A stretch of 64,000 nt of DNA, from the NCBI GenBank assembly GCA_964036045.1, contig OZ038379.1:115347604-115411603 (forward strand), in the 5' to 3' direction. The position numbers were made by a program, and so were the translations under genes. A model generated the notes under the pieces. It had not been told where the DNA came from, did not search any database, and saw nothing but the letters and a program-made list of their open reading frames with translations. Shown here piece after piece: positions 1,275 through 42,800 of the stretch. Position 1 is the stretch's first letter; each line of letters starts with the position of its first letter. The DNA comes from Eutreptiella sp. 'Long Island Sound 2002'. Its lineage: Eukaryota; Euglenozoa; Euglenophyceae; Eutreptiales; Eutreptiaceae.

Positions 1275-3013
1275 TGCTCGGGGAGCAAACGGCACCGGCT
1301 GGGTCCATGCAGGAAGGGCGCGCAACCACGGACCTGAGGAGCCTGACGGTACAGATGTCCCATGCCGCCCAGGATTCACCGACCACCACAACTGGCCATG
1401 CAGTTTATGCGGAAGAGGAGATCCAGAGCCAGACCATGCAGGGGCGAACCATGGGAAGCGCCGACGAACATGGTCGAGGCCACCCAGGCGGAAATCTGTG
1501 GGTGAAGAACCCCTCTACGGGGATATGGACAGCCGGTGGAGCAAGTCCTTCCCGCATTCCAAACCCCATGGGTTCAGGCCCAACTGGACCGCACTCCATG
1601 GAGGACAGGGATGTACGGGGAGTGTACTCACACCCCCCGGCCACAGGTGGTATCCGTCTCGGTGGAGTGATGGCTGCGGATGTCGGAGACGCTATCAGGA
1701 TTGACGACCTCAGGGGAATCTAAATCCCCTACTACGATGGCAACCCCTCCAACCTGGATGACTTCATCCTGGATTGGGAGGACTTTGCCGAGGAGGTCGT
1801 TGGCGAGATGAGGGGAGCGCCAAGGGACAAGTGGGTATGCCGGGCATTCCCACACAGGCTGGCGGAGGACCTGAAGGAGGAGTTCAGGGATCAGATCCGC
1901 GAGGGAGTGATCCAGACGGAGCAGGCCTGCCTCCAGTGGCTGGAGGACGAAGAGCGAGTGGAAGCCCCCAACCAGAAGTTGGAGGATTTGTGGTCCATTC
2001 CGCTGCCGCTGGAGCGCGAGGAACTGAGGGTCCGAGAATGGAATCGGTACATCCGCAAGTACCGAAGAAGCCTCAAGCTGGTGGAGGACTGGAATGAGGC
2101 AAGCGAGATCCGCCACCTGCTGAAGGACGTCCTCCCGGGCCACTGGAAGAGGCGAGTGGAGGACGAGGAGAAGAAGAGAGCAAAGAAGTGCGTGGCCGTA
2201 CGGATCATGGCATGGGAGGACACCCACGCCGGAATAATGGAGTTCTTCTGGCGAAACCTCGGCGAGCCCAGCCGAATGTTGGGGTTGAAGAACGCCGTCT
2301 ACGTGGAGGTATTCGGCGACACCATGGAGCAAAGGCTGATTCGCCTCAACAACGTGGAGTGGAGGCGCGGAGAGCCGCTGAGGATGCAGGTCATCTTCGC
2401 CCGCATGAGCCTGGACGAGATCGTGAAGTACATCACGGTGGAGCTGAAGCTCAACGCCAAGAACGAGGCCCACGTGCAGAATCCACAAGGCCCAGGACAT
2501 CGAGGTCATCAAGAAGATCGCCACCAGCGAGAGGTCAAGGGGGACACAGTCGGCACCGCGGAAGAAGGGATTAGAAGCGGTCAAGATCTCTGGACCCCGA
2601 CCACCCCAGAGGATCATGAAGAAGCCCACCTCTTCGCGTTAGTAGCGCATAACATGAAGGAGAATGGGCAGGACACGTCCAGGTGGAACCGCCTGGATCC
2701 CAGGAACAAGAACCGCAAACAAGAACCGCGGAGGATCGGGAACCCGCCGCTCTCGTTCCGCGAGTACAGATCGCAGCACACGGGTTGCTGGGTCTGCTAC
2801 GGCAAGGGGAACAACCATGCACATGACCACCGGCATTGCAAGGTATATGAGGAGGACAAGAAGACCTACTTCGCCGCCCATCCCGACAGGAAGCCCAAGG
2901 AGCAACAAATTGCCGATTGGAAGGCAAAGGGCGGAGACGGTGGTAAAGGCCAAGGAAAGGGCCAAGGGAAAGGCGGAGGAAAAGGCTATGGTGGAGGACC
3001 CGGTCCAGACTGA
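1256..3013 (+). pseudogene. gag: Gag capsid-nucleocapsid, one in-frame stop
   Basis: Structural protein that would package element RNA. The frame is coherent from 1256 to 3013 apart from a TAA at 1721-1723. Directly after it, YYDGNPSNLDDFILDWEDF matches the start of the retrotransposon Gag capsid domain. A long helical region with many Arg/Glu follows to about 2470. Around 2480-2635 a neighbouring frame reads more naturally, which suggests two compensating indels. Near the C terminus CWVCYGKGNNHAHDHRHC is a CCHC-like zinc knuckle for nucleic-acid binding, followed by a Gly/Lys-rich tail of GKGQ repeats. The protease frame begins 210 bases downstream. Confidence 0.8.
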
Positions 3014-3223
3014 CGCGTGAGGTCGATCGAGGAGGTTGCTGAGGACATGTTGAGGACGTTGGGGGAACTCAAAGCCCAGCAACGTGGTGGACAAAGTCTG
3101 AGCGGATCGCATTAGGAGGGAGCTGCGGCAGGCCATGTCTAGAGGAGCCCCCACGGGGGTGGGACTTCGGAGGTCTCTCCTCCGTAAATTAGTGGAAATT
3201 CAGAGAAGACGAAGGCATATCTG

Positions 3224-3889
3224 GTGCCGAAGAAGGCTCCAGAACCACTGAGTTTCCCCACTCCGAACCCCTGGAGCGCCCTGCCAAGGGAAATTTATTT
3301 GGGCAAGGGACGTGGCAAGAAAGAAGGAGCGACCACGGAGAGCCCCGTGGACGGGCAAGACCAGCCCAAGATCTACACCATCCGTTACCATACCTTCGAA
3401 GTCCTGATGCAACCGGATCTGCTAGAGTTGCATGCCGTGAGAGTCGTCCATACACCGCTTGGTGACAAGCGGCAGTTGCACTTGAAGGTGCGTGTACGGT
3501 GCGGACAAGAGGAGTTGGTGGTAGATGTGTTGGTCGATACGGGTGCCAAGGTGAGCCTGGTCCGGAGAGAGTTCTTCAAGGAGGAATCCCTGCAGCCCAG
3601 CCGTAGACCGGTACGCCTGGAGGTGGCCAATGGAGAGATTATGGGTGGTGGCACCCATGAGGCCACTATCAGTATGGAATTCTGCGAGCATGAGCGCTTG
3701 AACCGCCCTGATTTGGCGAAAAGAAGCACTATATCCGGGAACTTCTATGTGGCCGACATTACTGATTGGGATATGATCATGGGGTATGACTTCGTGGTGG
3801 GACGTCCCCATCGTGCAACGCTGGTCCGGGGGGATGATGAATGCCTCACATGGCTGTCCACGGACTATGCATGCGGATCATCCCAATAA
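3224..3889 (+). CDS. Retropepsin-like aspartic protease
   Basis: 221-codon frame. VDVLVDTGAKVSLVRREFF (Asp-Thr-Gly at residues 105-107) is the active-site loop of a retropepsin, which works as a homodimer to cut the polyprotein. DMIMGYDFV near residues 186-194 corresponds to the conserved flap-distal motif ahead of the C terminus. The N-terminal 90 residues are Pro/Lys-rich and link to Gag. The frame is intact and in the same register as the downstream domain at 3923. Good agreement with Ty3-type proteases, so function is confident; activity in this copy is moot because the polyprotein is broken elsewhere. Confidence 0.88.
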   Translation: MPKKAPEPLSFPTPNPWSALPREIYLGKGRGKKEGATTESPVDGQDQPKIYTIRYHTFEVLMQPDLLELHAVRVVHTPLGDKRQLHLKVRVRCGQEELVVDVLVDTGAKVSLVRREFFKEESLQPSRRPVRLEVANGEIMGGGTHEATISMEFCEHERLNRPDLAKRSTISGNFYVADITDWDMIMGYDFVVGRPHRATLVRGDDECLTWLSTDYACGSSQ

Positions 3890-3922
3890 AATGCTGAGGA
3901 AGAGGATCGGATCGTCCGAGCG

Positions 3923-4633
3923 GTGCAAGCTGTGGGTACCAAGTCCAGAGGAGACCGCAGAGTTCAGCTCACGGAGTATGGGATGGCACCGCAAGTGTAT
4001 GACAGAATGATCCAGACGCTGGGAGCCGAAGCGCCCGAGACGGACGTCTTCGCTTCCCGGGGTGCCCTAATTTTGCGGAAGTGTAGGAGGCATTGGCAAC
4101 GAGGAGACTCAGCCTGGCACAGGCATTGGGGTTTGAAGGAGTGGGGGCCCATGTATTGGCATGGCTCCCTGCAAAATACCAGGCGTACGGTGGAGAAGAT
4201 CGTCGTGGATAGGGCGAAGGGGATCCTGGTCATAACCGGCATAGGGTCCAGCCCATGTCCGCTGGAGGGTCTCAAGTCGACGCTGGACTCCATCACTCTC
4301 AACGAGATGTCATTCGGGCCGAAGGAGGAGTTGTTCATCGACGCCAAGGGTGTATCAATGCCATCCCCGGGTCAAGCGTGGGGTACCAAGGCTTCCCTGG
4401 TGGATGGGGCACAAGCCCAGCCCACAGGTGATGAAGCATTCATTCGTAAGGTTGAGGCGGTGCCCATGCGGGTCATGTTTGAGCACAAGGAGGGGACGGC
4501 CCTGCCAATCGATGGCATTGACGTCCTGTCCCACGCCGAGATCGACGACGTCGTCACCTACATGCGGATGAAGATGCACGACCGTGTGGCAGCCAAGAAG
4601 AGGCGGGCCATGGGCACATCTCCGCATTGGTGA
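3923..4633 (+). CDS. Extra domain between protease and RT
   Basis: 236-codon open frame filling the space where most Ty3 elements run directly from protease to RT. It contains a Tyr/Gly/Trp-rich block: ETDVFASRGALILRKCRRHW, then DSAWHRHWGLKEWGPMYWHG, then ILVITGIG. The D-x-F-A-S...D-A-W...W pattern resembles the segment that follows RNase H in DIRS-type elements; the similarity is by eye and not a database match. The second half has no motif I recognise. It is in frame 2 like the protease and RT. It may be a structural or recruited domain specific to this family. Confidence 0.6.
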   Translation: MQAVGTKSRGDRRVQLTEYGMAPQVYDRMIQTLGAEAPETDVFASRGALILRKCRRHWQRGDSAWHRHWGLKEWGPMYWHGSLQNTRRTVEKIVVDRAKGILVITGIGSSPCPLEGLKSTLDSITLNEMSFGPKEELFIDAKGVSMPSPGQAWGTKASLVDGAQAQPTGDEAFIRKVEAVPMRVMFEHKEGTALPIDGIDVLSHAEIDDVVTYMRMKMHDRVAAKKRRAMGTSPHW

Positions 4634-4816
4634 GATGACAAGATGTTGGTCACCGCCAAGTACGAGAAGGATGAGTTCGTGGCGAGGGTCATGGATCTCA
4701 TCGCGGACCAATACGATGGTCCGGTTAAGTCGGACCCGCCGACATCGGATTTTCCAAGAATGGGTGCCGATAACGACAAGAACCAGGCCGATGCCACAAA
4801 TTTATAAAGATTATCG

Positions 4817-5665
4817 GTGGGAGGAGCTCCCCACGACGATGAAGAGGGCATATCGGACGAGGAGAAGCCGGACTCGGATCCAGAAGAGGCCTGTACCGCA
4901 GTGCGGTCCGTTGTATCGATACCGAAGCAAGCGGCAGAAGAGGCCCAGGAGAATCCGAAGGTCGCCGAGCTGAAGGAGAGGCTGATAAATGTCTATCCGC
5001 GGCTATTCAGCTGCGTCGCCAACAAGAAGCCTCCAGATCGTGGGAGGTTTGGTACAGCGAAGATCAAGCTGAAGCCGAACCCCAAGATCTATCGTCATCG
5101 GGAGTACCAACTTCAGGGCGATCGGGCCGAGGCCATGAAGAAGTTGTTGGCTGAGTTTATTGAGCGGGGCTGGATCGAACCCTCTGACAGTGAGTGGGCC
5201 AGCCCAGCCTTAATGGTGCCCAAGAAAGAGAAGGGCGAGTGGAGGTTGGTGGTGCATTACAGGGGTTTGAACGAGCAAACCGAGCACGACTCGTACTCGC
5301 TTCCTCTGATCAACACCATCCTCCAGAAACAACAGAAAAAGCGGATCTTCACGGTGTTAGACCTGAAACAAGGCTATCACCAGATGCCGCTACATCCGGA
5401 CTCCAGGCCATGCACAGCGATGTCGACGCCGCTGGGGCCCATGCAGTGGAAAGTGGTGCCTATGGGCGCCAAGAATGGCAACGCCGCTTTCCAGCGCATG
5501 ATGGAGGACCTACTCGGTCCTGTCCCGGACTGTGCCGACCCCTTTATGGATGACGTGATCATCGGGTCCGGCACGGAGGACATGAGAAGGATCTGCACCG
5601 AGTGCTCAGTGAGCTGGACAAGCACAACATGGTGTGCAAGCCCAATAAAGCCTCACTCTTCGTGA
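4817..5665 (+). CDS. Reverse transcriptase, fingers and palm
   Basis: Copies element RNA into DNA. RT blocks appear in order: EFIERGWIEPSDSEWASPAL and KKEKGEWRLVVHYRGLN (fingers), TVLDLKQGYHQMPL with the first catalytic Asp near 5360, a strand-loop at VPMGAKNGNAAFQRMM, and FMDD at 5543-5554, the form of the YxDD box here. The N-terminal 60 residues are acidic and probably linker. The true RT frame leaves this ORF near 5590 and continues in the frame of the next entry, so the last 25 or so residues are out of frame. Strong family match. Confidence 0.92.
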   Translation: MGGAPHDDEEGISDEEKPDSDPEEACTAVRSVVSIPKQAAEEAQENPKVAELKERLINVYPRLFSCVANKKPPDRGRFGTAKIKLKPNPKIYRHREYQLQGDRAEAMKKLLAEFIERGWIEPSDSEWASPALMVPKKEKGEWRLVVHYRGLNEQTEHDSYSLPLINTILQKQQKKRIFTVLDLKQGYHQMPLHPDSRPCTAMSTPLGPMQWKVVPMGAKNGNAAFQRMMEDLLGPVPDCADPFMDDVIIGSGTEDMRRICTECSVSWTSTTWCASPIKPHSS

Positions 5666-6384
5666 AGGAAGTGGAGTTCGCGGGTCACGTGGTTGGTCAC
5701 GGGCAACGCCGTCCCGTGCCTGGGAAGCTGGCTTCCCTGCACCACTGGGAGAAGCCCCAGAACATCAGCGAACTCCGATCCTTCATGGGGTTCTGCAACT
5801 ACTATTCGGGCTATGTCCGGATGTATGCAGAACTATCGGGGCCGCTGCACAAGATGCTGCAGGTGGGCAAGTTCGATGGCCGGAAGGGGAGCAAGAAGAA
5901 GCGTGCCTGGACCTTTGAAGCCGAAGATGCGTTCAGCCGCCTGAAGGAGCGACTCCCGGGGCAGCTGGGGCTATTCCTGGTCGACCCTGACAAGGGATTC
6001 GTGCTACGGACGGACGCCTCGGACTATGCTGCAGGCGCAGTCCTCGAGCAGATCCGGGACGACGGGTCACACGTACCCGTGGCGCTTTGGAGCCAGATCC
6101 TAGCCGAGGGCCAACGCCGAACCTGGACCGCGAGGGAGAAGGAGACATATGCCATTGTTTGTGCGCTCAGGAAGTGGTCTGGCCACATCGGATTGCAACC
6201 GGAAGTGGTTTGTACGGACCATCAGACCTTGCAGAGCTGGCACAAAGAGCACGTCGACACCCCCTCGGGACCGGCGGCAAGGAGGGCCCGATGGCATGAG
6301 ACGTTCGCCAAGTTCGACCTCAGCGTCCTGTATGTCCCGGGGAAGGACAACACTGTGGCAGATTGCCTCAGTCGATGGGCCTAA
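5602..6384 (+). CDS. RT thumb/connection and RNase H
   Basis: Continues the reverse transcriptase after a one-base shift near 5590. The thumb and connection carry the typical block HWEKPQNISELRSFMGFCNY. RNase H follows: RTDASDYAAGAVLEQ (first Asp), TWTAREKETYAIVCAL (Glu), VVCTDHQTLQSW (Asp) and YVPGKDNTVADCLSRW (last Asp). These are the four acidic positions of Ty3 RNase H, which degrades the RNA strand of the hybrid. The frame ends 19 bases before the integrase ORF, in the same register, so a single stop separates them. Confidence 0.92.
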   Translation: MLSELDKHNMVCKPNKASLFVKEVEFAGHVVGHGQRRPVPGKLASLHHWEKPQNISELRSFMGFCNYYSGYVRMYAELSGPLHKMLQVGKFDGRKGSKKKRAWTFEAEDAFSRLKERLPGQLGLFLVDPDKGFVLRTDASDYAAGAVLEQIRDDGSHVPVALWSQILAEGQRRTWTAREKETYAIVCALRKWSGHIGLQPEVVCTDHQTLQSWHKEHVDTPSGPAARRARWHETFAKFDLSVLYVPGKDNTVADCLSRWA

Positions 6385-6402
6385 CCCGCGGGCAAGGCTT
6401 GG

Positions 6403-8154
6403 ATGGACATATCCAGCCATGGGGACGCCGAGGAAATCAAGGAGGCCAAGCGCATCATAAAGATGGAGAAGGCCATGGAGCAAGAGGGGGTCAAGTGCTT
6501 TGTGGTGATGGCAAACCGTACGGACCTGGCCAAGTTCCGGGGCGCCCGAGTCCAAGCTATTCGAGGGGAAACCCTCGAGCAGTGGATGGTGGCCCCTGTA
6601 GAGCTAGTCAGGTCGGTGCTCACAGAGGACTGGTCGGATGACTATGCAGCATCCGATCACTGGAGTAAGTACTGGAATGCCGTGAGCGCCCCGTCGGACG
6701 AAGAATGGCCTGAGGGCTTGTCCGAGGATGGGGACAAACTGTTTCTCAAGGACAAGCTATTGGTCCCTGAGAACCGAATGGAGGAGCTCATTGACCACTC
6801 GCATAACGCGCAGCTCATGCATCCTGGTCGGGACAAGATGCAGCAGGACCTGGAGTGGCGCTTCAAGTTCCCACCGGGCTACGCCCTCCTGGACAAGTAC
6901 TGCAGCGACTGCGCTGTGTGTCGGGCCACGAAGAGACCCAACCACTCCACAGCTGGCAACCCGGTGTATACGGCTATACCGGAAGCCCCTATGCGGTCCG
7001 TGGCCATGGATGTATACGCCATGCCTGAGGTCACCGTGGAAGGGGAGATCTACGACTGTGTCATCCTGGCGGTGGACAGGCACAGCGGGTATATCGTGGC
7101 AGTCTCGGGCAAGAAGTCCAAGAAGAAGGCCAAGAAGGACATGCATGGAGTCGGGCTGCAGGCCAAGACCGTCGCCGACGCCATGATCAGGCATTAGCTG
7201 ACGATTTTTGGTGTCCCAGCTGTCATCTGCAGCGATCGGGGCAGTCATTTTGTGGGGACGTGGTTCAAGACGATTTGCAAGCACATGGGGATTCGGCACG
7301 CCAACACCGTGGCGTACCACAGCCGGTCGAATGACTGGGCTGAGGTGGCCGGGCGGCGGATGTTGGAGAAGTTCTGCCAGCTGCACATTGACGAACCGGG
7401 CCGGAACTGGTATAATTTGCTGTGGAGAGTACTCCAGGCGTACCATGACCTTCCGGGCCCCACTGGACTGTCGCCCCATCGTATCCTGTTCCTGCGGGAT
7501 CGAGTGTCACGCAATCTCCCGTGGTTGAACCATGGCAAAGTGGCCCGGGATGCGAACGCTATGATGGCTGAGGTGGACGACACGGCGGCCAAGGTGTGCA
7601 AGGCACTTCAGGAGGAGCATGAGAAGAGGGCCAAGTACTTCAAGCAGGGAAAAGTCCAGAAATATGCTCTCCAAGACACCATATGGGTGGAGCGGCACCA
7701 CAAGGATGTCCTGTCCAGGCATCGGCAGGCATCTTGGTATGTGCCGGGGGTAATCGTGTGGAAGGTCGGGCAGGATGTGTATGCGGTTCGTGTGGGAGAT
7801 AACAAGATCCTGGACCGCCACCACACCCAGCTTCGTCCCCGAGCACCAGACCCCAGCAGACGTCCCGTCACCTTCGAGTTCACGGCCGGCGATGTGGACT
7901 CGGACGACGAGGGTGAGGACGACGACTTCACCGCTGAGAGGATCCTGGCGGACAAGCCGGACCCGGGGACGCCTGGGGGGAGGCTTTATAAAGTCGGTTG
8001 GAAGGGATTCGCCGCACCTAGGGATTTGTGGCAGCCTCCGAGCAGCTTTCTGCCGAGGTACACCACGGTCTGGATGGAGTATCCGAAGAAGAAGAACATT
8101 TCTTTGGATGTCAAGGACGTGTTGGTCCATTTGGTGGCTGCAGTAGCACCGTAA
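6403..8154 (+). pseudogene. Integrase with C-terminal chromodomain, one stop
   Basis: Integrates the DNA copy. A His-Cys zinc finger (HSHNAQLMH ... CSDCAVC, about 6800-6930) precedes the RNase H-fold core. The catalytic residues are visible as Asp at 7009 (AMDVYAM), Asp at 7234 (ICSDRGSHF) and Glu at 7342 (DWAEVAG), giving the D-D-35-E spacing. A TAG at 7195-7197 interrupts the frame between the first and second Asp. After a basic C-terminal domain, FTAERILADKPDP ... YKVGWKGF ... LWQPP (about 7930-8040) is a chromodomain, a reader of histone marks that directs insertion in chromoviruses. The frame ends at 8154. Confidence 0.9.
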
Positions 8155-28911: not shown

Positions 28912-29071
28912 AAGAGCACCGGTGACCAGCATCTCGCCCGACCGTCTCACAAAAAGAAGAAGAAAGCCATGCAAAAGGTGAAGAAACCAGAGTCTGGTAC
29001 AGCACCCACAGCAACCCCAGCAACCCTATCCACAAAAGCCATTTAGGGCGCAGTCGCTCCGAAGGTTCAGG

Positions 29072-30478
29072 GTGATGTTTCAGGCTGGCAATCCCCATAT
29101 TTCCGAGTGCCATTTTGCAGCCATCAAGGGGTACGTGAAAGAGGAGGATACTTCCGTGTCATTCGATGAATACACTGATTCCCTGGGTCAGGCGGTGTTG
29201 AACATTGTGGTCAGCACGGGGCCCAAAGTATTCCTGATTGATACCATCTACTTGCAGTGCCAGGGTCCGAACGATGGGGTTGAGCACAAGGAGGTTGCAT
29301 CCAAAGTGAACGAGTCGTTGAGTGAAGCAGGCATTGTCCCTAAGCACGTTAAATTCTTCGTTTGCGATGAGGGCAGTGTTATGGTGGCTGCCTTCAACAA
29401 CCGCTTGCAAGAGCTCTTCCCTGCAGCTCAGTTGCATGTTTGTGTGGCTCAAAAATTGCATGGGACAGGCGGGGCAATTACTGAGGCCGGCTTTGACGAT
29501 TTGGATTTGATGTTTAGTAGCCATGCTGTTGTGCATGCGAAGAAACAGAGTGCACGCCGCCGTCGGTGGTTTGCTTTTTTGGCTTCTGTGGACCAACCTC
29601 ATTGTGTCCCTCCCAAGCTTGGGGACACTCGATGGTGTTCTTGGCTTGACTGTGCCGATTGGTGGCGGCCCTGCTTGTTGCATAGGAAAGCATTTCTGAT
29701 TTTGCAGACAAAGCGGAACCCCTTGAAGCCCAAACAGGCAGGGGACACCCCTCCCCTGATTTTTCGCATCCTCGAAGCATTAGAGACACGCCTGCGGGGA
29801 CTCAAACTGAAGTTGGCTTTCATCTGTGACCACACCCAGAAGTTGAGTGAAGCACTGAACAGTCTTCGGGGTACGGGGGATGCAAACACACCTTTTGTGT
29901 ATGACCGTATCATGAATGTACGTGCCATTTTCACAGAGCTGCCAGGTGCAGATGCTGTGTTTTCTCCTGCTGTAGAGGAACTGCTAAAGGCATACAAGGA
30001 TGCGACTGCAGCACGGTCTTTTTTGTCAAATGTTGCCAAAAGGGCTGTTGTACATATTAATAATGTTATGGCGAAGCGGCGTGATCAATGGAAATTCTAC
30101 AAGCAGGTCCGCATGCTGAATCCAGTGAATCTGGGTGACATGCAACCTGACCTTCCGAGTTTCACTCACCTGCAGGTTCCCACCAGCAACGAGTCCTTTC
30201 GGACTGAGTGGCATCAATATTGTATGGTGGAGAACAATGCCATTAACACCCCGACGGCTTTGGCTGCTTTTTGGGCCAACCTTGGAGGTGAGTTGGCAAA
30301 GCTTGCCCGCTTCTTGATTTATGTTCCTGTAATTTCTGCAGGAGTCGAACGCAGCTTCAGTTTGGCAGGTACCATGGATACGAAATACCGCCATGGCTTG
30401 CCAAATGCGATGCAGCGCATTGCAAATATGCTCATGTTTAATGGAGATATTGAGGGCAGGTTCAATCCAGTGTTATAG
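29072..30478 (+). CDS. hAT transposase catalytic domain
   Basis: 468 codons, the longest intact ORF in the window. It has the hAT DDE plan: first Asp at residue 99 (FFVCDEGSVMVAAF), LHVCVAQKLHGTGG after it, second Asp at residue 185 (KLGDTRWCSW) and Glu at residue 426 in GVERSFSLAG within the C-terminal dimerisation region. The insertion between second Asp and Glu is helical, as in hAT enzymes. It would cut and paste the element using the ends described. The N-terminal finger lies in another frame, with a stop between, so the full protein is probably not made. Confidence 0.9.
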   Translation: MMFQAGNPHISECHFAAIKGYVKEEDTSVSFDEYTDSLGQAVLNIVVSTGPKVFLIDTIYLQCQGPNDGVEHKEVASKVNESLSEAGIVPKHVKFFVCDEGSVMVAAFNNRLQELFPAAQLHVCVAQKLHGTGGAITEAGFDDLDLMFSSHAVVHAKKQSARRRRWFAFLASVDQPHCVPPKLGDTRWCSWLDCADWWRPCLLHRKAFLILQTKRNPLKPKQAGDTPPLIFRILEALETRLRGLKLKLAFICDHTQKLSEALNSLRGTGDANTPFVYDRIMNVRAIFTELPGADAVFSPAVEELLKAYKDATAARSFLSNVAKRAVVHINNVMAKRRDQWKFYKQVRMLNPVNLGDMQPDLPSFTHLQVPTSNESFRTEWHQYCMVENNAINTPTALAAFWANLGGELAKLARFLIYVPVISAGVERSFSLAGTMDTKYRHGLPNAMQRIANMLMFNGDIEGRFNPVL

Positions 30479-32337: not shown

Positions 32338-33181
32338 CTATGTAAATATCGTGACGCGACATTTTAGAAACCGCAAGCGGTGGGAATAGGATATGCGGAC
32401 ACCACTATGGTTTTTGTGGCACTTGATACTTGCTCTGCAGCACGCAACGGTGAACATGTGCCCACATATGCAAAATATTCGCGTGAAAATCACGCAAAAT
32501 GGGGCGAATACTGCACATATGCGCCTCTGCAATGTCCCCGCAGACACAGGTGAATTGTGCAGTGTGAATAGGCCAATTCGTAGGCCAACGTGGCAATCTA
32601 GCGTGTCAGAATAGGGCTGTTTCTTTTCGCAAGCATCCGTAGCTAGTTGTTCTAAAATTTCTAAAAAGTATTGCTACCAACCTAGCCCCATGAAAAACAT
32701 CTTTTCGGAGCAAAACACTTACTTCGAGCACCCATATTCGCACCATCTTTGCTCTTTATTCAAGAATTCCCTTACAGGTCGTTCACAAAGGGTAAATGCT
32801 TGACTGGTACCAATTGTGTTTATCGGTCTGGGGTCCAAAGGATGAAGAGGGTGCTCTGAAGACCGTCCTTTGCCCCCTCAGATGCAGGCATACAATGGTG
32901 CCTGCAGATGGACACCATGAGAAGCAAGTCCCCCATCCGCAATTCAGTGGTGTCCCACCGGATCTTCCCCGACACCCGAATTGTGGTCTGTGCCAATACT
33001 GGCACCTAGTACACCTCTAATAGACAAAGGAAACTACGGAAGTGGCATCCTCACATGGCCCTATTACAGGGGGGGGGGGCACCTCCCTAGGCACATGCTA
33101 GAACACTGAATTTCGTTCTATGCTACAACGACATCGTCTCGGCGTTCTAACTGAGACTACAACAATACTAGAGCAAGAGAA
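32338..33181 (+). other. Region without a recognised gene
   Basis: No domain. The last 80 bases (ctagaacactg ... gttctaac) are similar to 36505-36570 ahead of the second copy of the unknown tandem gene and mark its upstream flank. Confidence 0.4.
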
Positions 33182-34990
33182 ATGGAACACAGGGATGCAA
33201 TTTTGTTCATGACCCGCCGCGCATGCTTGCTATTGCCTATGGTGTATTGTTGCATGTCCCTTAAATCACACTTGGATTTTTCGTATTTCAACCTCATTAA
33301 ACGTCCCGCCTCTACCCTTCTTGCACCATTATCAACGGGGGAGGACCCTCCTATGGTCCAAGACACTACGGCACTTGAGTTCTGCTACTAGCCTCAAGGC
33401 TGAGCAGGCGTGCCATTACTTGGCCAAGTTGGCGGTATCGTACCCCCTAGCATGATGGCATTTCAACAATGCCGTCCAGCACTTAAGGAGCGTGTAATTG
33501 ATCTCACCAAACCCGGCCCGGCGCGGATGTACTTGACCCATGAGGCAAAGGCCCATGAGATACCCGTGGCCTTGGGCAACACTACGGTGACGGGGTCAAT
33601 CAATTCCACAGGCTGATCGATTCCATCCGTCAGGCTTGAAAGTGCCGCTCGGTGCAAAGGGCTTGGGCGTAGGGGCCACCGGGGCAACACTGCCACTTTC
33701 GCCCACACTACGGGTCCCGCCCACCACCATGTGCAAGCTAGAGCTCAACTTGCGTGCCCCGAAGTCTTCGCGAAGGTCCCTCTTGGAGTACAAGCTGCGC
33801 CCGTTATAGTGTCATTCCCATTGACGTTCATCATCCACAGGATTGCCTATCCCATGGCCAGGGCCAATTGTACCCAACCTACCATCTCCTTGGCCATTGT
33901 TGACCGCTTCGCATGCTCCCCCGCGGGCCTCAGGGTGTTGAGCATATTGAACTGTGATAACAAGGCGATGGAGACCCATGGAACCTTTTGGAGGGACAAG
34001 TGGAAGGTCTTCCGTTTACCTAGTGCCCATCGCCCATTCTAGTTTCATTGTAGTTAGCGCCGGCGAACGTTCGCTCGGGCACAAGTGGCCCAAGAGTAGG
34101 ACATCAAGACAACACCCATGTCTCATGTTTAGGTGACTCAAGAAATCATCGACAGCAGCCTCAGCCAATGTGAGGCCGCTGAGGAGGCAGCCAAGGTGAT
34201 CCTCACGGGGACCAACCGTGGGCAGGAGGGTGATTGGGCTGTCCACATGCCCTCACGTGCGCACCATAATCAAATTAACGGATATGAAACCCCCGAAGAG
34301 GGTTTGGGATGGAGGGGATATCCCGCGGACCAATTAGCGTGATGAGGCTCATTACAGAGCCGTCCTCCCTGCAACCACCTCCTTGCAAACGCCCAGTTGT
34401 AGTATGCCACCCATCTAGCTCATGCCCCTTGCCTCCGTTGTCTTGTGCAATTTGCACGTACCCACGGCCATGGGCTGCTTGCTTGGGGGAATTATTGACC
34501 GGGAGTTTTAGAATTTTTTTGGTTGGTCCATCCAGACTTGCATGTCCTCTTTTCCTAGAGAAGGGCGGGAAGGAGCGTTTACGGGGTGTCTTCCCGGGAT
34601 GGGGAAGAAATGGGCATTTTTTATGAGGCAAGGCCGCATAATGCTAGGTGCCCTGGCATTAGGCCTGGCTCGGCCAAGTACAACACCGTTGCAAACGTAG
34701 TGGACGCCTGCAGGCCCTGTTGTCCATCTAAGGGCGTCAACGGTGCTAGGGTCCTACGTTTTTTGTGTTGATCGCCTCTTGTGCACACGTGCAATAGCAC
34801 AAGCTTCCTCCGGGGGGGGGGTGCCATGCTTAGGGAGAGACGCTACGGAGGTAAGGAGGGGCATGAAGCACACGTGGTATTCCCTTGGTGCACAATACTT
34901 TACAAAATGTGTGCATCAACGCGGATTCGTTGAACCACGTGCTAGGGCAGGTATTTTGGGGTGCGCTCTAGCGTTGCCCTAATCAGGGGT
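33182..34990 (+). pseudogene. Unknown tandem gene, copy 1 (rearranged)
   Basis: Diverged relative of the gene at 36674-39334, offset about 3.43 kb. Matching blocks include LRAPKSSRRSLLEYKLR (33740-33800), PLTFIIHRIAYPMARANC and LSILNCDNKAMET (33820-33990), the second-exon start VTQEIIDSSLSQCEAAEEAA (34134-34200) and IRPGSAKYNTVANV near 34660-34700. The intron boundary is also conserved (donor after aagtggaag near 34002; acceptor catgtttag at 34132). A block of about 190 bp (33487-33680) is inverted and moved relative to copy 2. Several frameshifts; function unknown. Confidence 0.6.
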
Positions 34991-36137
34991 GCTACAGTTG
35001 ATCTGGCCAACAAGATGGGTTGCCAGAGATTGACTGGAATGTCACTAGAACCGCTGACCAGAACGCTGCTAGAATGCCTCACCTGGTTTGTTGAAGCATT
35101 TTTAGGCCATGCAAACGTTGCAGCAGTTGGTTCCGCTCCGCCACGGCAACCGTGGCTTCCACAACCGCAGGGTGCCCCGTCCGTGGCGTTCTCAACGCAA
35201 GCACCGTCTGTTTCCCCTCCGTTGCTTCCCTTTCGCCCCTGCGAACCCGTCTCCCATAAAAACGACCCACACCTTAATGGTGGGGGATGGGGTGTGTGTT
35301 AGAAAAGGGTTACTAGGAGCAAGGATGCGCCCCGGCAAGCCCCCCCAACAACGCATGAAGGGACACATGTGTGTCGCGGGTCGCAAAAGAAGGTGTGGCA
35401 TGCTAAGGTGCTAATTGGGCTAGTCGGGCCCATCAGGCTAACCCACCACCAAGTGACTGGGCCCGGCCCGCCAAGTGACCCTCCAAGTCACCTTGGGGGG
35501 GGGAGGGGGCGCGGGGGGGGGGCTAACTAGCCTAACCGGGGGGTGGGGGGGGGGGTCAAGTTTCAGGACTCTTTGATCACGGCTAGCTCCTCGTTAACGA
35601 GTGGCGGAGCATTCATTCGGACTGTTCTAGCGACACATTTAGCAACGTTTTAGCGAGCGCTAGCGGCGCTCGCTGGACCGTCGCGAAAACTTCTTAAAAA
35701 AACTTTGCTATTCAATTTGAGGGCAAAAAGCTGTTGTTCTAGAAAAAAATGAAAAAAAGAATAGAAATGGTTTGGACCCCCGGGTAGGGTACTGGGAGGC
35801 CCAAGTTCTAGCCTTCATACCACAGCCCCTCCAGGTCCAGGGTCGGGATAACACTGCCTTTCTGGGTCTAGCTGTTGTAGTCGTTCCTAGGCCAGAACAA
35901 GATAGGGTATTCTAGCATATACCAAGGGGTCCAGTCGGTGTCAGTGTCCTTCAATTCAAGATACTAGCGACACTAATGGGCCCAGGTTTCCTTGAGCGCA
36001 AGTCAGCAGCAGGCGGCAAAGACTTGACCAATTTGGCCGTCACCTTCTTGAACAAGGGTCCGACACCCACGTGACACGGGCACCTCTTGCTTTGCCAACC
36101 TTGAGGGCTGGGGGTTGATTCTTTGCCTAACTACACG
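34991..36137 (+). other. Spacer with CTAGAAC words and G-rich block
   Basis: 34991-35080 and 35600-35660 contain repeated ctagaa/ttctag and ctagcg words shared with 38690-38815 and 36500-36570. 35495-35556 is a G-rich block with four or more long G runs, able in principle to form a quadruplex. No gene recognised. Confidence 0.45.
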
Positions 36138-36468
36138 AGCTACGCTGAATCCTTTGAGGGTATAGACCCCTCGAAGACTCACTGCCTGAGGTCTACACTA
36201 GTCTACAGACACATCGGCGAATCCTTGAAGGGTCTACACTACTTCACCGGAGCTGCAGTGAATCCTCAAAGGGTGTAGACCCTTCAACGTTTCACCGCAT
36301 GATGTCTGTACCCATCTATAGGGGCTGCGGTGAATTACTGAATGGTGCAGACCCTTTAAGGATTCACCACATGGGGTCTATAGTAGTCTACCAAGGATGC
36401 GGTGAATCCTTGAAGGGTGTAGACCCCTGAAGAATTCACCGCATGAGGTCTAAACTAATCCACATGGG
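36138..36468 (+). repeat. 72-bp hairpin satellite, array 1
   Basis: Four full units and one truncated unit. A consensus unit starts gcggtgaatccttgaagggt, has the loop gtag, then acccttcaaggattcaccgc, so its first 44 bases fold into a nearly perfect 20-bp hairpin; atgaggtctacactagtctacaggggct completes the period (consensus given in parts). Lies 200 bp ahead of the unknown gene copy 2. Confidence 0.85.
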
Positions 36469-36673
36469 CTACCCTAGGTACACACTAGGAGACTCAATCT
36501 TGATCTAGCCTAGAACACTATAGCCTGGATGTTCTAGCCTAGATTAGATCAATACTAGAACGATATAATGTCTACCCAGATGTGCTCGTTTCTTCATTGT
36601 TCCCCCATGCATGCTTGCTATTGTCCATAGTTCATTGTTTCTCTGGCGCTTAGACATTACACATTCTTTTGCA

Positions 36674-39334
36674 ATGAAACGCCCTGCCAATTTCCCCCTT
36701 GCTCCCTTCTCAACCAGGAAGGATACTTCCCTCTTGGCTAAGGCACTACGGGACTTGATTGGGGCTTCAAATCTCAATGATGAGCGGATGGGCCATTACT
36801 TGGCCACATGGACGCTATCATGCCCCCTAGCACTGCGGCAATTCAACAACGCCGTCCAATATGTGAACACCGCCACTTCTGCCCATACCACGGGTGAGGC
36901 GTGCAAGGCTGCCGTTGAGGCATACACCGCCTCCCTTCTCCCTACCATCACCATGTGTGAACTAGTGCTCATCATGAGGGCCCCTAAGTCCTCGTGGGGG
37001 ACCCTCTCCGGGCTCAACACGCTGCGTAAGTTGGAGTATCACCGCACCGTCCCCAGTGGCCCCTACTCCCATCCAATTTGTACCGAGCGGGATTTCCAAG
37101 CCCGTTGGACGGAGCCGGTTACCCCCGTGCAATTGGATGAGCCCGTTGCCATGGTGTTGCCCAAGGCCACCGAGATCTCATGGCCCTTCGCGTCATGCGT
37201 CACATACATCGTCTGCTGGCCGGGCTTGGTGCGGTCAATCAACCGCAACTTCCCATTGATGTTCATCATCCGGGGGGGTGCCTACCCCATGGCCGGGGGC
37301 AATTGGACCAAACCTACCATCTCCTTGGCCAACTTCGACCGCTTGGCCCGCTCTCCCACAGGCCTTTGCGTGTTGAGCACGGCCAATTGCGATGACAAGG
37401 CCATGGACACCCTTCGGACGTTGCGGAAGAGCAATTGGGAGGTAGGCCTCTCACCTAGTGCCTTTCGCTCGTTGTAATTTTGATCTAGTTAGCCTCGAAC
37501 ATCGCTCGCTAGAAGCTAGATTACACTAGACTAAAACGAAATTAACCACCCCCCATGTCTCGTGTTCAGGTGATTCAAGCAATAATCGACGCGGGGCTTG
37601 TCCAATGGGGGGCCTCCAAGGAGGAGGCAAAGGTGATCCTCGGGGGGGATCAACCGTGGACACCAAGGGTGATCGGGGTGTCCACATGCCCCCAAGTGGG
37701 CTCCATGTTCAACGAGGGGATATGGAATGCCCAATAGAACACTTGGGAGGGTAGTGATATCCGCCCGACCATGGTGGGTGATGCAGCCAACTACACGTCC
37801 TTCCTACTTGAGACGCCTTTCTTGCAAACCGCTGGCTGCGGTACGCAACAGATTTTGGAATTGCCAAGTACCTGGGTCGTCTTGTGCATTTTGCACTTGA
37901 CAATGGCCATGGGCTGCTTGTTGGGGGAGCTTGTGGACCGGGAGGCTAGGTCGGTCACCCTGCGCTCTGTCAAGACCTACAAGTTCTCCTGTCGGAGAGG
38001 CGTGCAGGTTCAAGCGTTTATGGGTCAGCTTCCCCGGCCGGGGAAGAGACGGCCAATTTTTTGGATGCATGGCCGGATGTTGCTAGGTGCCTCAGCATTA
38101 GGCCGAGCACGGCCAGGTACAAGGCCGCCGCGAACATGTGGGACCTGCTGCAGGCCCTCTATTGTACATATCAGGGCCCTAACTAATTGAACTGTGCTGC
38201 CGTGGCCCGTGATTTCCGGCGACACTGTACTTTCCGAACAACATCATGGTATCTAGCGAGCCTTGAGCATGAAGTACATATCATGTTGCAGAACATTAAG
38301 CCATTTGGGTCGGCTATGTTCTCGGGTGACATTTCTGAAAGCATCAACCGCTTTCTGAAACATGGTTGCAACGAACACAGCAACCGGGGGGAGGGGGGGG
38401 GGCTGTCGGGTGGAGGGGGTGGACGAGGTGTCGGCTCGTCACTGGTCGGCCATCCACAGGGAGGCCAATGTGCAAGCACAGTGCATGACATGGCTGCTTG
38501 CATACTTTGATGTGTTGTGGGTTGTGCACAGGGGGCCGCGGTCGCAAGTGCCATGCTCGGGAAGGGATGCCATGGGGGTAAGGAGGGGCCAGGGCCACAT
38601 GCTGGCCTCCCTCAACCAGAATATTGACCAACAGCATGGCATCGAAGGAGTTGATTGACGAGCTGATCAGCCGGGTATCTTGTCTTGTTGTGCGTTCTAG
38701 CGCTGATCTAGGGAAGCCTTCTAGCGTTGATCTAGGCAGCACGATCGGTCGCTAGAACATCCCTAGAACACCGCTAGAACGCTTGCCTAGAACGCCGCTG
38801 GAATGCTGCTGTGTTTCCGATAGAATGAGGCGACCCAGGTGCTGATTGCGCAGGTGATGGCGGCACAGGCGCAAGAGCAGGCCGAGCAGGCTGAGGCCAA
38901 GCTCAAGGCCACGGCCAAGCCCCAGCCCCAACCCCAAGCCCCACATCCACCATCGCCACCTCCTCACCCGTTGACCGCCAGGAAGTCGGCCAAGGCGGCC
39001 CCGGAGTTCACGGAGGTGGAGGAAATGCGGGGGGGAGCTGCGAGGGGTCTTGCCTTCCCTCGCAGCTCAGAAGGCGGGAAAGGCTAGGCTGGAGAGCAAG
39101 GTCTCCCAATGGGAGACCAAGCTGGCGGAGGTGCGGAGGTGTTCAGGAGGATTGGGGATGAGGAGATGATCCGCACGGAGGAGGACACTGCCGCAAGGCG
39201 AAGGCCAAGCTGGTGGAGATAGAGAAGGGGATCTACACGCTTAATCGCAGTGTGCGGAGGATGGAGGTGGTGTTGGCGGCGGTGGTGGATACGGTGAAGG
39301 AGGAGGTGGAGGAGGTGGCGGGGGTGGACATGTA
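36674..39334 (+). pseudogene. Unknown intron-containing gene, copy 2
   Basis: Exon 1 (36674-37441, from MKRPANFPLAPFSTRKDTSL) is 256 codons and intact, with the block FIIRGGAYPMAGGNW and VLSTANCDDKAMDTL. A 128-bp intron (37442-37569, gtaggc...gttcag) leads in phase 0 to VIQAIIDAGLVQWGASKEEA. Later text runs through a TAG at 37735, a frameshift near 37825 (then LRYATDFGIAKYLGRLVHFA), SGDISESINRFLKHGCNEHS near 38320-38380, and a second intron (38675-38823) that joins SKELIDELISR to NEATQVLIAQVMAAQAQEQA, a continuous coiled coil. Frames change at G runs 38393-38402 and 39029-39035. No family recognised; E-S-x-N-x3-K may be the last acidic motif of a transposase, which is speculation. Confidence 0.65.
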
Positions 39335-39384
39335 GCCGGAGGGGATGGGGGAAGAGACGTTGAAGGAGGAGGTGGAGGCAAAGG

Positions 39385-39849
39385 TTGCGATGAATCCTTG
39401 CGGGGTATAGACGCCTCAAGCATTCACCGTATGAGGTGTGCAGTAGTGTATTGGGGCTATAGTGAAACCTTGCGGGGTGTAGACCCTGCGACGATTACCG
39501 CATGAGGTCTGCATCAGTCTACCGGGGCTGCGGTGAATCCTTGAAGGGTATAGACCCTACAGAAATTCACCGCATGAGGTCTACACTAGTCTACAGGGGC
39601 TGCGGTGAATCCTTGAAGGATGTAGACCGTTGAATGATTCACCGCATGAGGTCTACATCCCTCTACACGGATGCGGTGAATCTTTGAAGGGTGTAGAACC
39701 TTCAGCAATCCACTGCAAAAGGTCTACACTAGTCCTCAGGGGCTGTGGTGAATCCTTCAAAGATGTAGCCCCCTCAAGGATTTACCGCATGAGGTCTACA
39801 CCCATCTGTAGCGATGCGGTGAATCCTTGAAGGGTGTAGACCCTTCAAC
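39385..39849 (+). repeat. 72-bp hairpin satellite, array 2
   Basis: About six and a half units of the same 72-bp repeat as array 1, same orientation. Units differ by substitutions, and some change both arms of the stem together (for example gaagggt/acccttc against gcggggt/accctgc). Confidence 0.88.
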
Positions 39850-42800
39850 AGTCCTTTCCAACATTGTAGCTTTACAGTCCATTTTCCGAAATGTCCTTCG
39901 CGTTGGTCGGGACCGTCGTGGGTGCATACATCACTCACCTCGGTTTGGGACACCACAAATACCCCAACGTGGGCAACCATGGTAACTTGGTGACTACCAG
40001 ATAGGGGCTGATGGTTGACTGACCCCATGTGTGACAATTTGCAGGTCGTTGAAACCCGACACCAGGTGGTAAAAAGATCGCGGAGGGAATTGCTCGCGGG
40101 CACAATAGCCCGCATGGAAGAATGGGCGATTGCATATGCCATGGATCGAGGCTCTATGCAAGGAATGGCATGTGTTCCTGTGGACATGGAACTCGCGAGG
40201 CGCTGACTATCTTTCACTCGTGACACGTCTTCAACGACAGCTGACAATACCAAAAAGGGGGTGCCCAAAGGTGCAAAGGACGCGTGGCCCAGGCACATGA
40301 TGTAAGACACGCGCATACCTGCATGGCCGGGACACATGGACACGGACTGTTTGCGCGAAGTCTGTTGCTCTACCTATAGCACTCGTGCGCATGTTGACAC
40401 ATGACCACCAACCCTCACCTAATAGGAACCGTTGTGTACTTTCGAATACGACTTGACTGATTCAACACCTCATGTTTGTGGCAGACGGGGTGTGTACTGA
40501 CATGGCAATCGACACATGAGGTCACTTGTCCCCACAGATGCCCACTTATGGACATGCATGAGCTGCATGGAGTTAATGCCTTTGATTACAGGGGTTTACT
40601 TGCGCTTGCAGGCACTGTCACGGAGCTCAAAGCCCTAGTGGGCAGCTCCTTGCTGTCCTGGGCCACCACGCCCGTCCCTGCTTTCATGCAAAATAACGGC
40701 ACCCCCATGGGACACTTATCCAATTAGATCCGTGTCTTCACGCCATGGTCAGCATTTCCAGCATTGTTCAAGCCCAACATTCGTCTCTTGACGCCAACTC
40801 CCACGCATTTCTTCTCATTGTGCTCATCCATGGAGATCGAATTAGATGCCGCCCCAACCCTTATTGCCGGACGACCACTTCTCGGCCTTGCATATACCCT
40901 TCGAGACGTGACTTGCGCACGAGAGGTCTGATCACGGCCTCCCACGTCCTCAACGGCCCCTGTCGACGCGTAAGATTGGTTGAGCTTCATAATCTAGCAG
41001 ATGGATACCGCCGTAGTGAAGCGGTCCGCCTTCTGCGCCTCCTCTTGGAGGGTACGAGGGTGCAACTTTTTTGGCTTGTTCTTCGCCGTGCATTGTATCC
41101 ACTAGGGGGGACAGAATGGCTGCTTTACCGGGGGTCTAGACTCTTTTTTCTGTAACAAAGCACCCTGGACGGTGGATCCCCTCGAGGTGTGGTAGGGGGC
41201 ATGCAATGAGGGATACTCCCACTGAGCACACAAGAACTCCCAAGGGCGTTCCAATGCCGGGCAATGTGTAGCAAACATACAAAGCATGAAAGGATGGCAA
41301 CTATTTGCCGCCTCATACTCTCTATCGGTTATGTGCTGAGCCACCGAATCAGCAAGCCTTGGCCCTAGCGGAGGGGGCTACAGCAAGCAGCTGCGGCGAG
41401 GGAGGTTGGCTAGGCGAGGCAAAAGGGGCAAAGGCATCGTCCAATTGCACAATGAAGTCCTTGCAAAAGAATTCTTTAGGTGCTTCCAAACTACCTAAAT
41501 GGGTGCATGATAGTGGTCTTTGCCAACAACAGTAGCATACATGGAAGAAACGGATCCTGAGGTACGGGGAGCGAGCCAAAGTGATTGGGAGGAACTAGAG
41601 CAAGGAGGGTGCAATACACTTTAGCGTCATTGAACTCCTTTCGGTGGACGACATCCAAGAACACGCCTCATGTCAAACATGGCAGGGATCACAACCAGTC
41701 GGTGCAATCAGGATGGGTCTTTTTGTGCGTCATGTACTAATGTCTCGAAACATGCAAATTTGATGGAAGAGTGTGGAGTGCTTCGTCGTGTTTGTCATAC
41801 TTGGATTAATAGGCGGCGGCGACCTACGCGCGTTGGTTTGTTGTCCATGCGGTGCGGAACGGGGTCGTTGAAAGTATGGCTTTTGAACGCCCCAAAGGTT
41901 AGTTTCTAATTGGCATGTGTTAGTGGTAGAATAATTCTTATTGGCCCGGGCCCTGTGTACTGAACCCAGGAGAGTAGAAGTTGATGAGTTATTAATTGAG
42001 CCTTGGAACGAAATTTCAATCATTGTTGTGATGCACTGCGTTGTAGCACTGTTTGTCTGTCTGGTTGTCTCCTTGTGTGTGTATTTACCTGTACTTGTTG
42101 TTTGGGTGCACAAAATTTCCCTTTAAATTTGAAAAGAGCGCGCTGCAGCGCCCGTTTGTCTCAAAACGGGTTTGAACAGTCTCCAGAACCGTTGGTCAAA
42201 CACTCAACCGGAAAATTTGAAAGAAAGTGCGCCGCATTGCAGTTGCTCTACAAAAAGTGGCAACCTCCCCCCCCCAGTGAGTTGTATAGTGCTGCAGGGG
42301 ACAATGTTGGACTCTCAGGCTTTACCAGGTAGACAAAGTGCATCCCCTTGGAGATTGTCATGCCAACGGGTTGCATCCAACTCCACTGACTGCATGTAGC
42401 AGTAAACAGATCACGTTGTGTACACCTTGTTTGTCTATGTACTATCGTGGGCAATATATCCTATGCCATTTCGTCAATTTGTGATCGAGTCGGAGTTCAC
42501 ATTTGGTGATGATCTGGCAGATGGCGCATTGCCAAGCACTCCTTCTCGGCATTTTGTTACTTGGTCACTGCACTTGCGTAGGCACAAGCACTCTAGATAT
42601 GAATTGGATGATTTTTTTTGCAGCAAAGGAAACATGTTGAACTGCGATTCACACCACCTTTTTGGTACAAAACAAGCCTGAAGGAACCTTTTAGTCTTTG
42701 GAGGCACATGGATGCACGTTGCCTCCCACATTCAAAGCATGCATTGGAGATAGTGAGTGGCATTGGTTGCCCCAGAGATGTTGCCCCAGCAAACCATGGA

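Follow-up and report, generated by a model that had tools for sequence, protein, structure and literature searches.

What kind of gene lies at positions 36,674-39,334 of a 64,000-nucleotide stretch of DNA (the window) from the euglenophyte Eutreptiella sp. 'Long Island Sound 2002'? The original prediction was a single gene of unrecognised family, mobile or belonging to the host, with two introns and a C-terminal coiled coil. Comparison with relatives placed this interval inside the left-hand 2.9 kb (36472-39385) of a cut-and-paste DNA transposon that has decayed. We consider it likely that a two-gene transposon of a new RAG-like lineage left this copy, now dead and truncated on the right.

The transposon reading is carried by direct observations: the ends are inverted repeats, target sites are duplicated over 2 bp, copies are numerous and the first gene is under coding constraint. 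Relatives and end-pattern sites were taken from the same 2.28-Gb genome as the window, in which full-length relatives span ~5.4 kb and bear 45-bp inverted ends (CCCTTGGTACACG...). The left end was found in 20/21 copies, and both ends in 13 of the 20 copies fetched. All 13 two-ended copies are flanked by a target duplication of exactly 2 bp; in controls, swapped partners matched in 24/156 cases and 3-bp duplications in 0/13. Most of these copies terminate in CCC..GGG, with CC or CT variants in the remainder. Counting copies genome-wide, as the original prediction had advised, revealed ~2,000 sites with a 29-nt end pattern (1,029 + 974; reversed control, 0), and at least three related families are present, including the window element's own. 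Scanning both strands of the 64 kb uncovered only three end-like sites at a score of ≥36. The upstream second copy reported earlier is indeed a relative, with 67-81% identity in six pieces. Because of the inverted ends, target duplications and copy number, we rejected a host gene with two introns. The proposal of a mobile family survived, whereas the single gene gave way to a decayed member of an abundant transposon, its coiled coil most likely belonging to a second gene.

Gene 1, comprising exon 1, intron 1 and exon 2, is a probable Asp-Asp-Glu (DDE) transposase under purifying selection. Across 21 copies (210 pairs), the ratio of nonsynonymous to synonymous polymorphism in exon 1 was 0.58 in the coding frame compared with 1.26 and 1.30 in the other two, and frame constraint was also detected in exon 2 and its tail. 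Exon 1 had been described as intact and is open as stated; intron 1 had been placed to the nucleotide, with a GT donor in 21/21 copies read and the acceptor pattern matched in 20/21. Copy L012, in which the spliced gene 1 is naturally intact, contains a putative acidic triad, D202-80-D283-229-E513. The second D is kept in 47/50 and the E in 63/67 aligned members (alignment A4), with spacings of 80 and 229, and two further families retain both residues. Selection together with a conserved acidic triad points to a DDE transposase with putative catalytic activity. The window copy itself is dead: its putative first catalytic D is replaced by G, its exon 2 is broken and it lacks a right end. Exon 2 is interrupted here by an in-frame stop (Table 1), a frameshift near 37960, and more stops and shifts.

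The gene 1 enzyme is predicted to resemble RAG1, which rearranges antibody genes. This resemblance emerged from structure prediction of exon 2, another check that had been advised, which yielded partial, low-confidence models, one each from two families. Using Foldseek, the nine best of 38 rows for model 1 were RAG1 or HzTransib; for model 2, RAG1 ranked first and third (probability 0.85 and 0.72), with the others among the matches listed at ≤0.08. Rows 1-26 from VIA were RAG1 or HzTransib in both models, with BbRAGL also among them for model 1. Transib/RAG1 proteins (HzTransib, BbRAGL, mouse and zebrafish RAG1) provide the best structural matches for these exon 2 models from both families, and appear to share with them the D, D, E order and a long helical insertion before the E. 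The Glu of SGDISESINRFLKHG, a segment suspected at the outset of ending a transposase core, fits that role, lying within ~2 residues of the RAG1 catalytic Glu in several structural alignments. Alternatively, a helical arrangement may be all that is shared, with the transposase coming from P element, hAT or some other DDE group that also carries a helical insertion. We regard this as unlikely, since RAG1/Transib was top-ranked for both models in both programs and the duplication is 2 bp here, compared with 8 bp in hAT and P elements. CACTA and KDZ proteins were absent among the structural rows, although such absence is uninformative.

Several observations weigh against the RAG/Transib likeness. 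Zinc motifs and CA..TG ends typical of the clade are absent, and searches of Pfam families and PDB sequences produced no match for the transposase. Between the second D and the E, C(2)C occurs in 3/50 members, H(3-4)H in 2/50 and both in 0/50; the 13 copies also lack the CA..TG ends of most CMCT members (CACTA, Mirage, Chapaev, Transib, Plavaka, RAG1). Sequence similarity between the window element and Transib/RAG1 was not detectable. Transib and RAG target duplications are 5 bp, unlike the 2 bp of this element, which does fall within the 2-5 bp of the CMCT clade. The original prediction recognised no family, and Pfam-A likewise gave none at cut-off for exon 1, exon 2, the gene 2 pieces or 68 members of alignment A4; below curated cut-offs were weak matches, among them DUF4762 (E 0.019) and, for the coiled coil, DUF1403 (E 0.0019). 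Searching PDB by sequence returned nothing for the protein and one unrelated chain per profile (E about 2).

Another explanation would place the element in a known superfamily (CACTA/EnSpm, Mirage or Plavaka-like) as a highly diverged member, unseen with the libraries used, which were without Repbase. CACTA elements also have a second gene and subterminal repeats, and 2-bp duplications are known in CACTA/EnSpm, Mirage, Plavaka and related CMCT groups. Such lineages have 2-5 bp duplications and a RAG-like arrangement in common (PMC12730594), but the window element differs in its CCC..GGG ends, in having both zinc motifs in none of 50 members and in lacking a Pfam-A match in 68, and we find this explanation improbable. 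KDZ transposons (Kyakuja, Zisupton) are likewise eukaryotic DDE transposons with large transposases, but their target duplications are 7 and 8 bp (PMC12730594) rather than 2 bp. A TA target was found in 5/13 copies, unlike Tc1/mariner elements, which use TA only. We infer that the transposon group is a new lineage near but outside the known RAG/Transib/CACTA clade, with putative splicing and activity. Judged by titles and abstract openings, the papers found in literature searches included none on this element, and its type is seemingly undescribed.

The coiled coil lies in a different frame from exon 2, one that opens with the ATG at 38636; together with intron 2 it is therefore probably part of a second gene, which overlaps gene 1. 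The predicted borders of intron 2 were upheld, with GT in 12/13 and AG in 12/13 copies (15 aligned rows, minus L014 and L025, where it is deleted); the uninterrupted coiled coil was not, as its frame in the window stops after 82 codons, counted from where reading was begun behind the intron. Border conservation would also suit one gene in which exon 2 is spliced across intron 2 to the coil, as would copy L012, whose gene 1 frame extends into the intron up to codon 650. However, the exon 2 frame is not continued into the coil frame at the conserved borders, and the coil continues from ATG 38636, leaving the one-gene arrangement quite unlikely.

The end motif CTAGAAC also forms the basis of a palindromic module that introns 2 and 3 of the element have in common. 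Their inverted repeats, which pair from one side of the intron to the other, recall the structured (nonconventional) introns of Euglena, which have been proposed to derive from transposons. Unlike those introns, introns 2 and 3 have conventional GT-AG borders and were seen here only inside the transposon. The donor of intron 2 (window 38675) reads GTATA in most relatives, which equals the splice-site sequence of Euglena spliced-leader RNA; one report places this sequence in only 39 of 11,527 GT-AG introns (PMC11170887). As to introner-like elements, the similarity observed is that between introns 2 and 3 inside the element. We think it very doubtful that the group is an unnamed deep RAG-like lineage lacking zinc ligands in which the introns arose from the element's own end arrays, the palindromic CTAGAAC module having been copied into its genes and then spliced.

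We propose that gene 1, through exons 1 and 2, would encode a DDE transposase in which, as in RAG1/Transib, a helical insertion separates the second Asp from the Glu. After recognising and cutting the ends, this enzyme would join them to target DNA at positions staggered by 2 bp. Gene 2 would supply a coiled-coil, proline-rich and charged partner, by its own expression or by alternative splicing. One of the two proteins is likely to bind the CTAGAAC/GTTCTAG motif, which occurs in the introns as well as at both ends.

Table 1. Positions of the transposon copy, its parts and an older relative in the window
Feature	Position	Strand	Basis
Internally deleted older relative of the element, terminal repeats present at both ends	33085..35928	+	
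Expected 2-bp target duplication, left half, TA (right half lost)	36470..36471	.	Ends/duplication comparison
Left terminal inverted repeat, CCCTAGGTACACACTAGGAGACTC...	36472..36516	+	Window scan, score 66
Gene 1 exon 1, 256 codons, open	36674..37441	+	
Codon 202, Gly in window copy; putative first catalytic Asp in 19/21 copies	37277..37279	+	Alignment
Gene 1 intron 1, 128 bp, GT-AG	37442..37569	+	Copy comparison
Gene 1 exon 2, stops and frameshifts, right edge approximate	37570..38650	+	
In-frame stop within exon 2	37735..37737	+	
Putative catalytic Glu codon in SGDISESINRFLK	38337..38339	+	Alignment
Gene 2 first exon, MASKELIDELISR, frame differs from gene 1	38636..38674	+	
Intron 2 (gene 2), GT-AG, strong hairpin of CTAGAAC-like repeats	38675..38823	+	
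Gene 2 second exon, decayed coiled-coil and charged region	38824..39330	+	
Right edge of similarity to other copies; element's right half missing	39378..39385	.	

Within the older upstream copy, ~190 bp of exon 1 is inverted at 33485-33684. Tandem repeats of 72 bp with a palindromic core (TGCGGTGAATCCTTGAAGGGTGTAGACCC) flank the window copy at 36131-36470 and 39383-39854; they were excluded from the element because they lie outside its left end and 20 other loci showed none. Elsewhere, 28982-30478 is an open frame of 498 codons weakly matching the hAT transposase Hermes (PDB sequence search, E 0.067), and long frames at 1724-8154 resemble by eye a Ty3-type long terminal repeat retrotransposon (reverse transcriptase, integrase). 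Outside the window, chlorophyll-binding genes occur in open frames of 6,122 and 4,424 codons (G000 C23 near 19070551 and C9 near 43683542). A giant-virus origin of the element was weighed because E. gracilis carries giant-virus insertions (PMC12455990), and found no support here. Pattern-matching stretches in viral contigs (139) and prokaryote genome contigs (106) included none that was confirmed, and a viral structure library gave 73 rows at E up to 10, the best at 1.9.

Unclassified repeats reportedly make up 32.7%, or about a third, of the E. gracilis genome (PMC11252322), and part of the unclassified repeat fraction now has a gene, ends and a target duplication. If true, a RAG1/Transib-like enzyme free of zinc ligands, in a lineage distant from both animals and fungi, would broaden the group from which V(D)J recombination emerged and test how necessary those ligands are. 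The idea that structured euglenid introns derive from transposons could be tested concretely with the module common to introns and ends; were this module also present in host genes, this transposon group would be a source of structured introns in Euglena.
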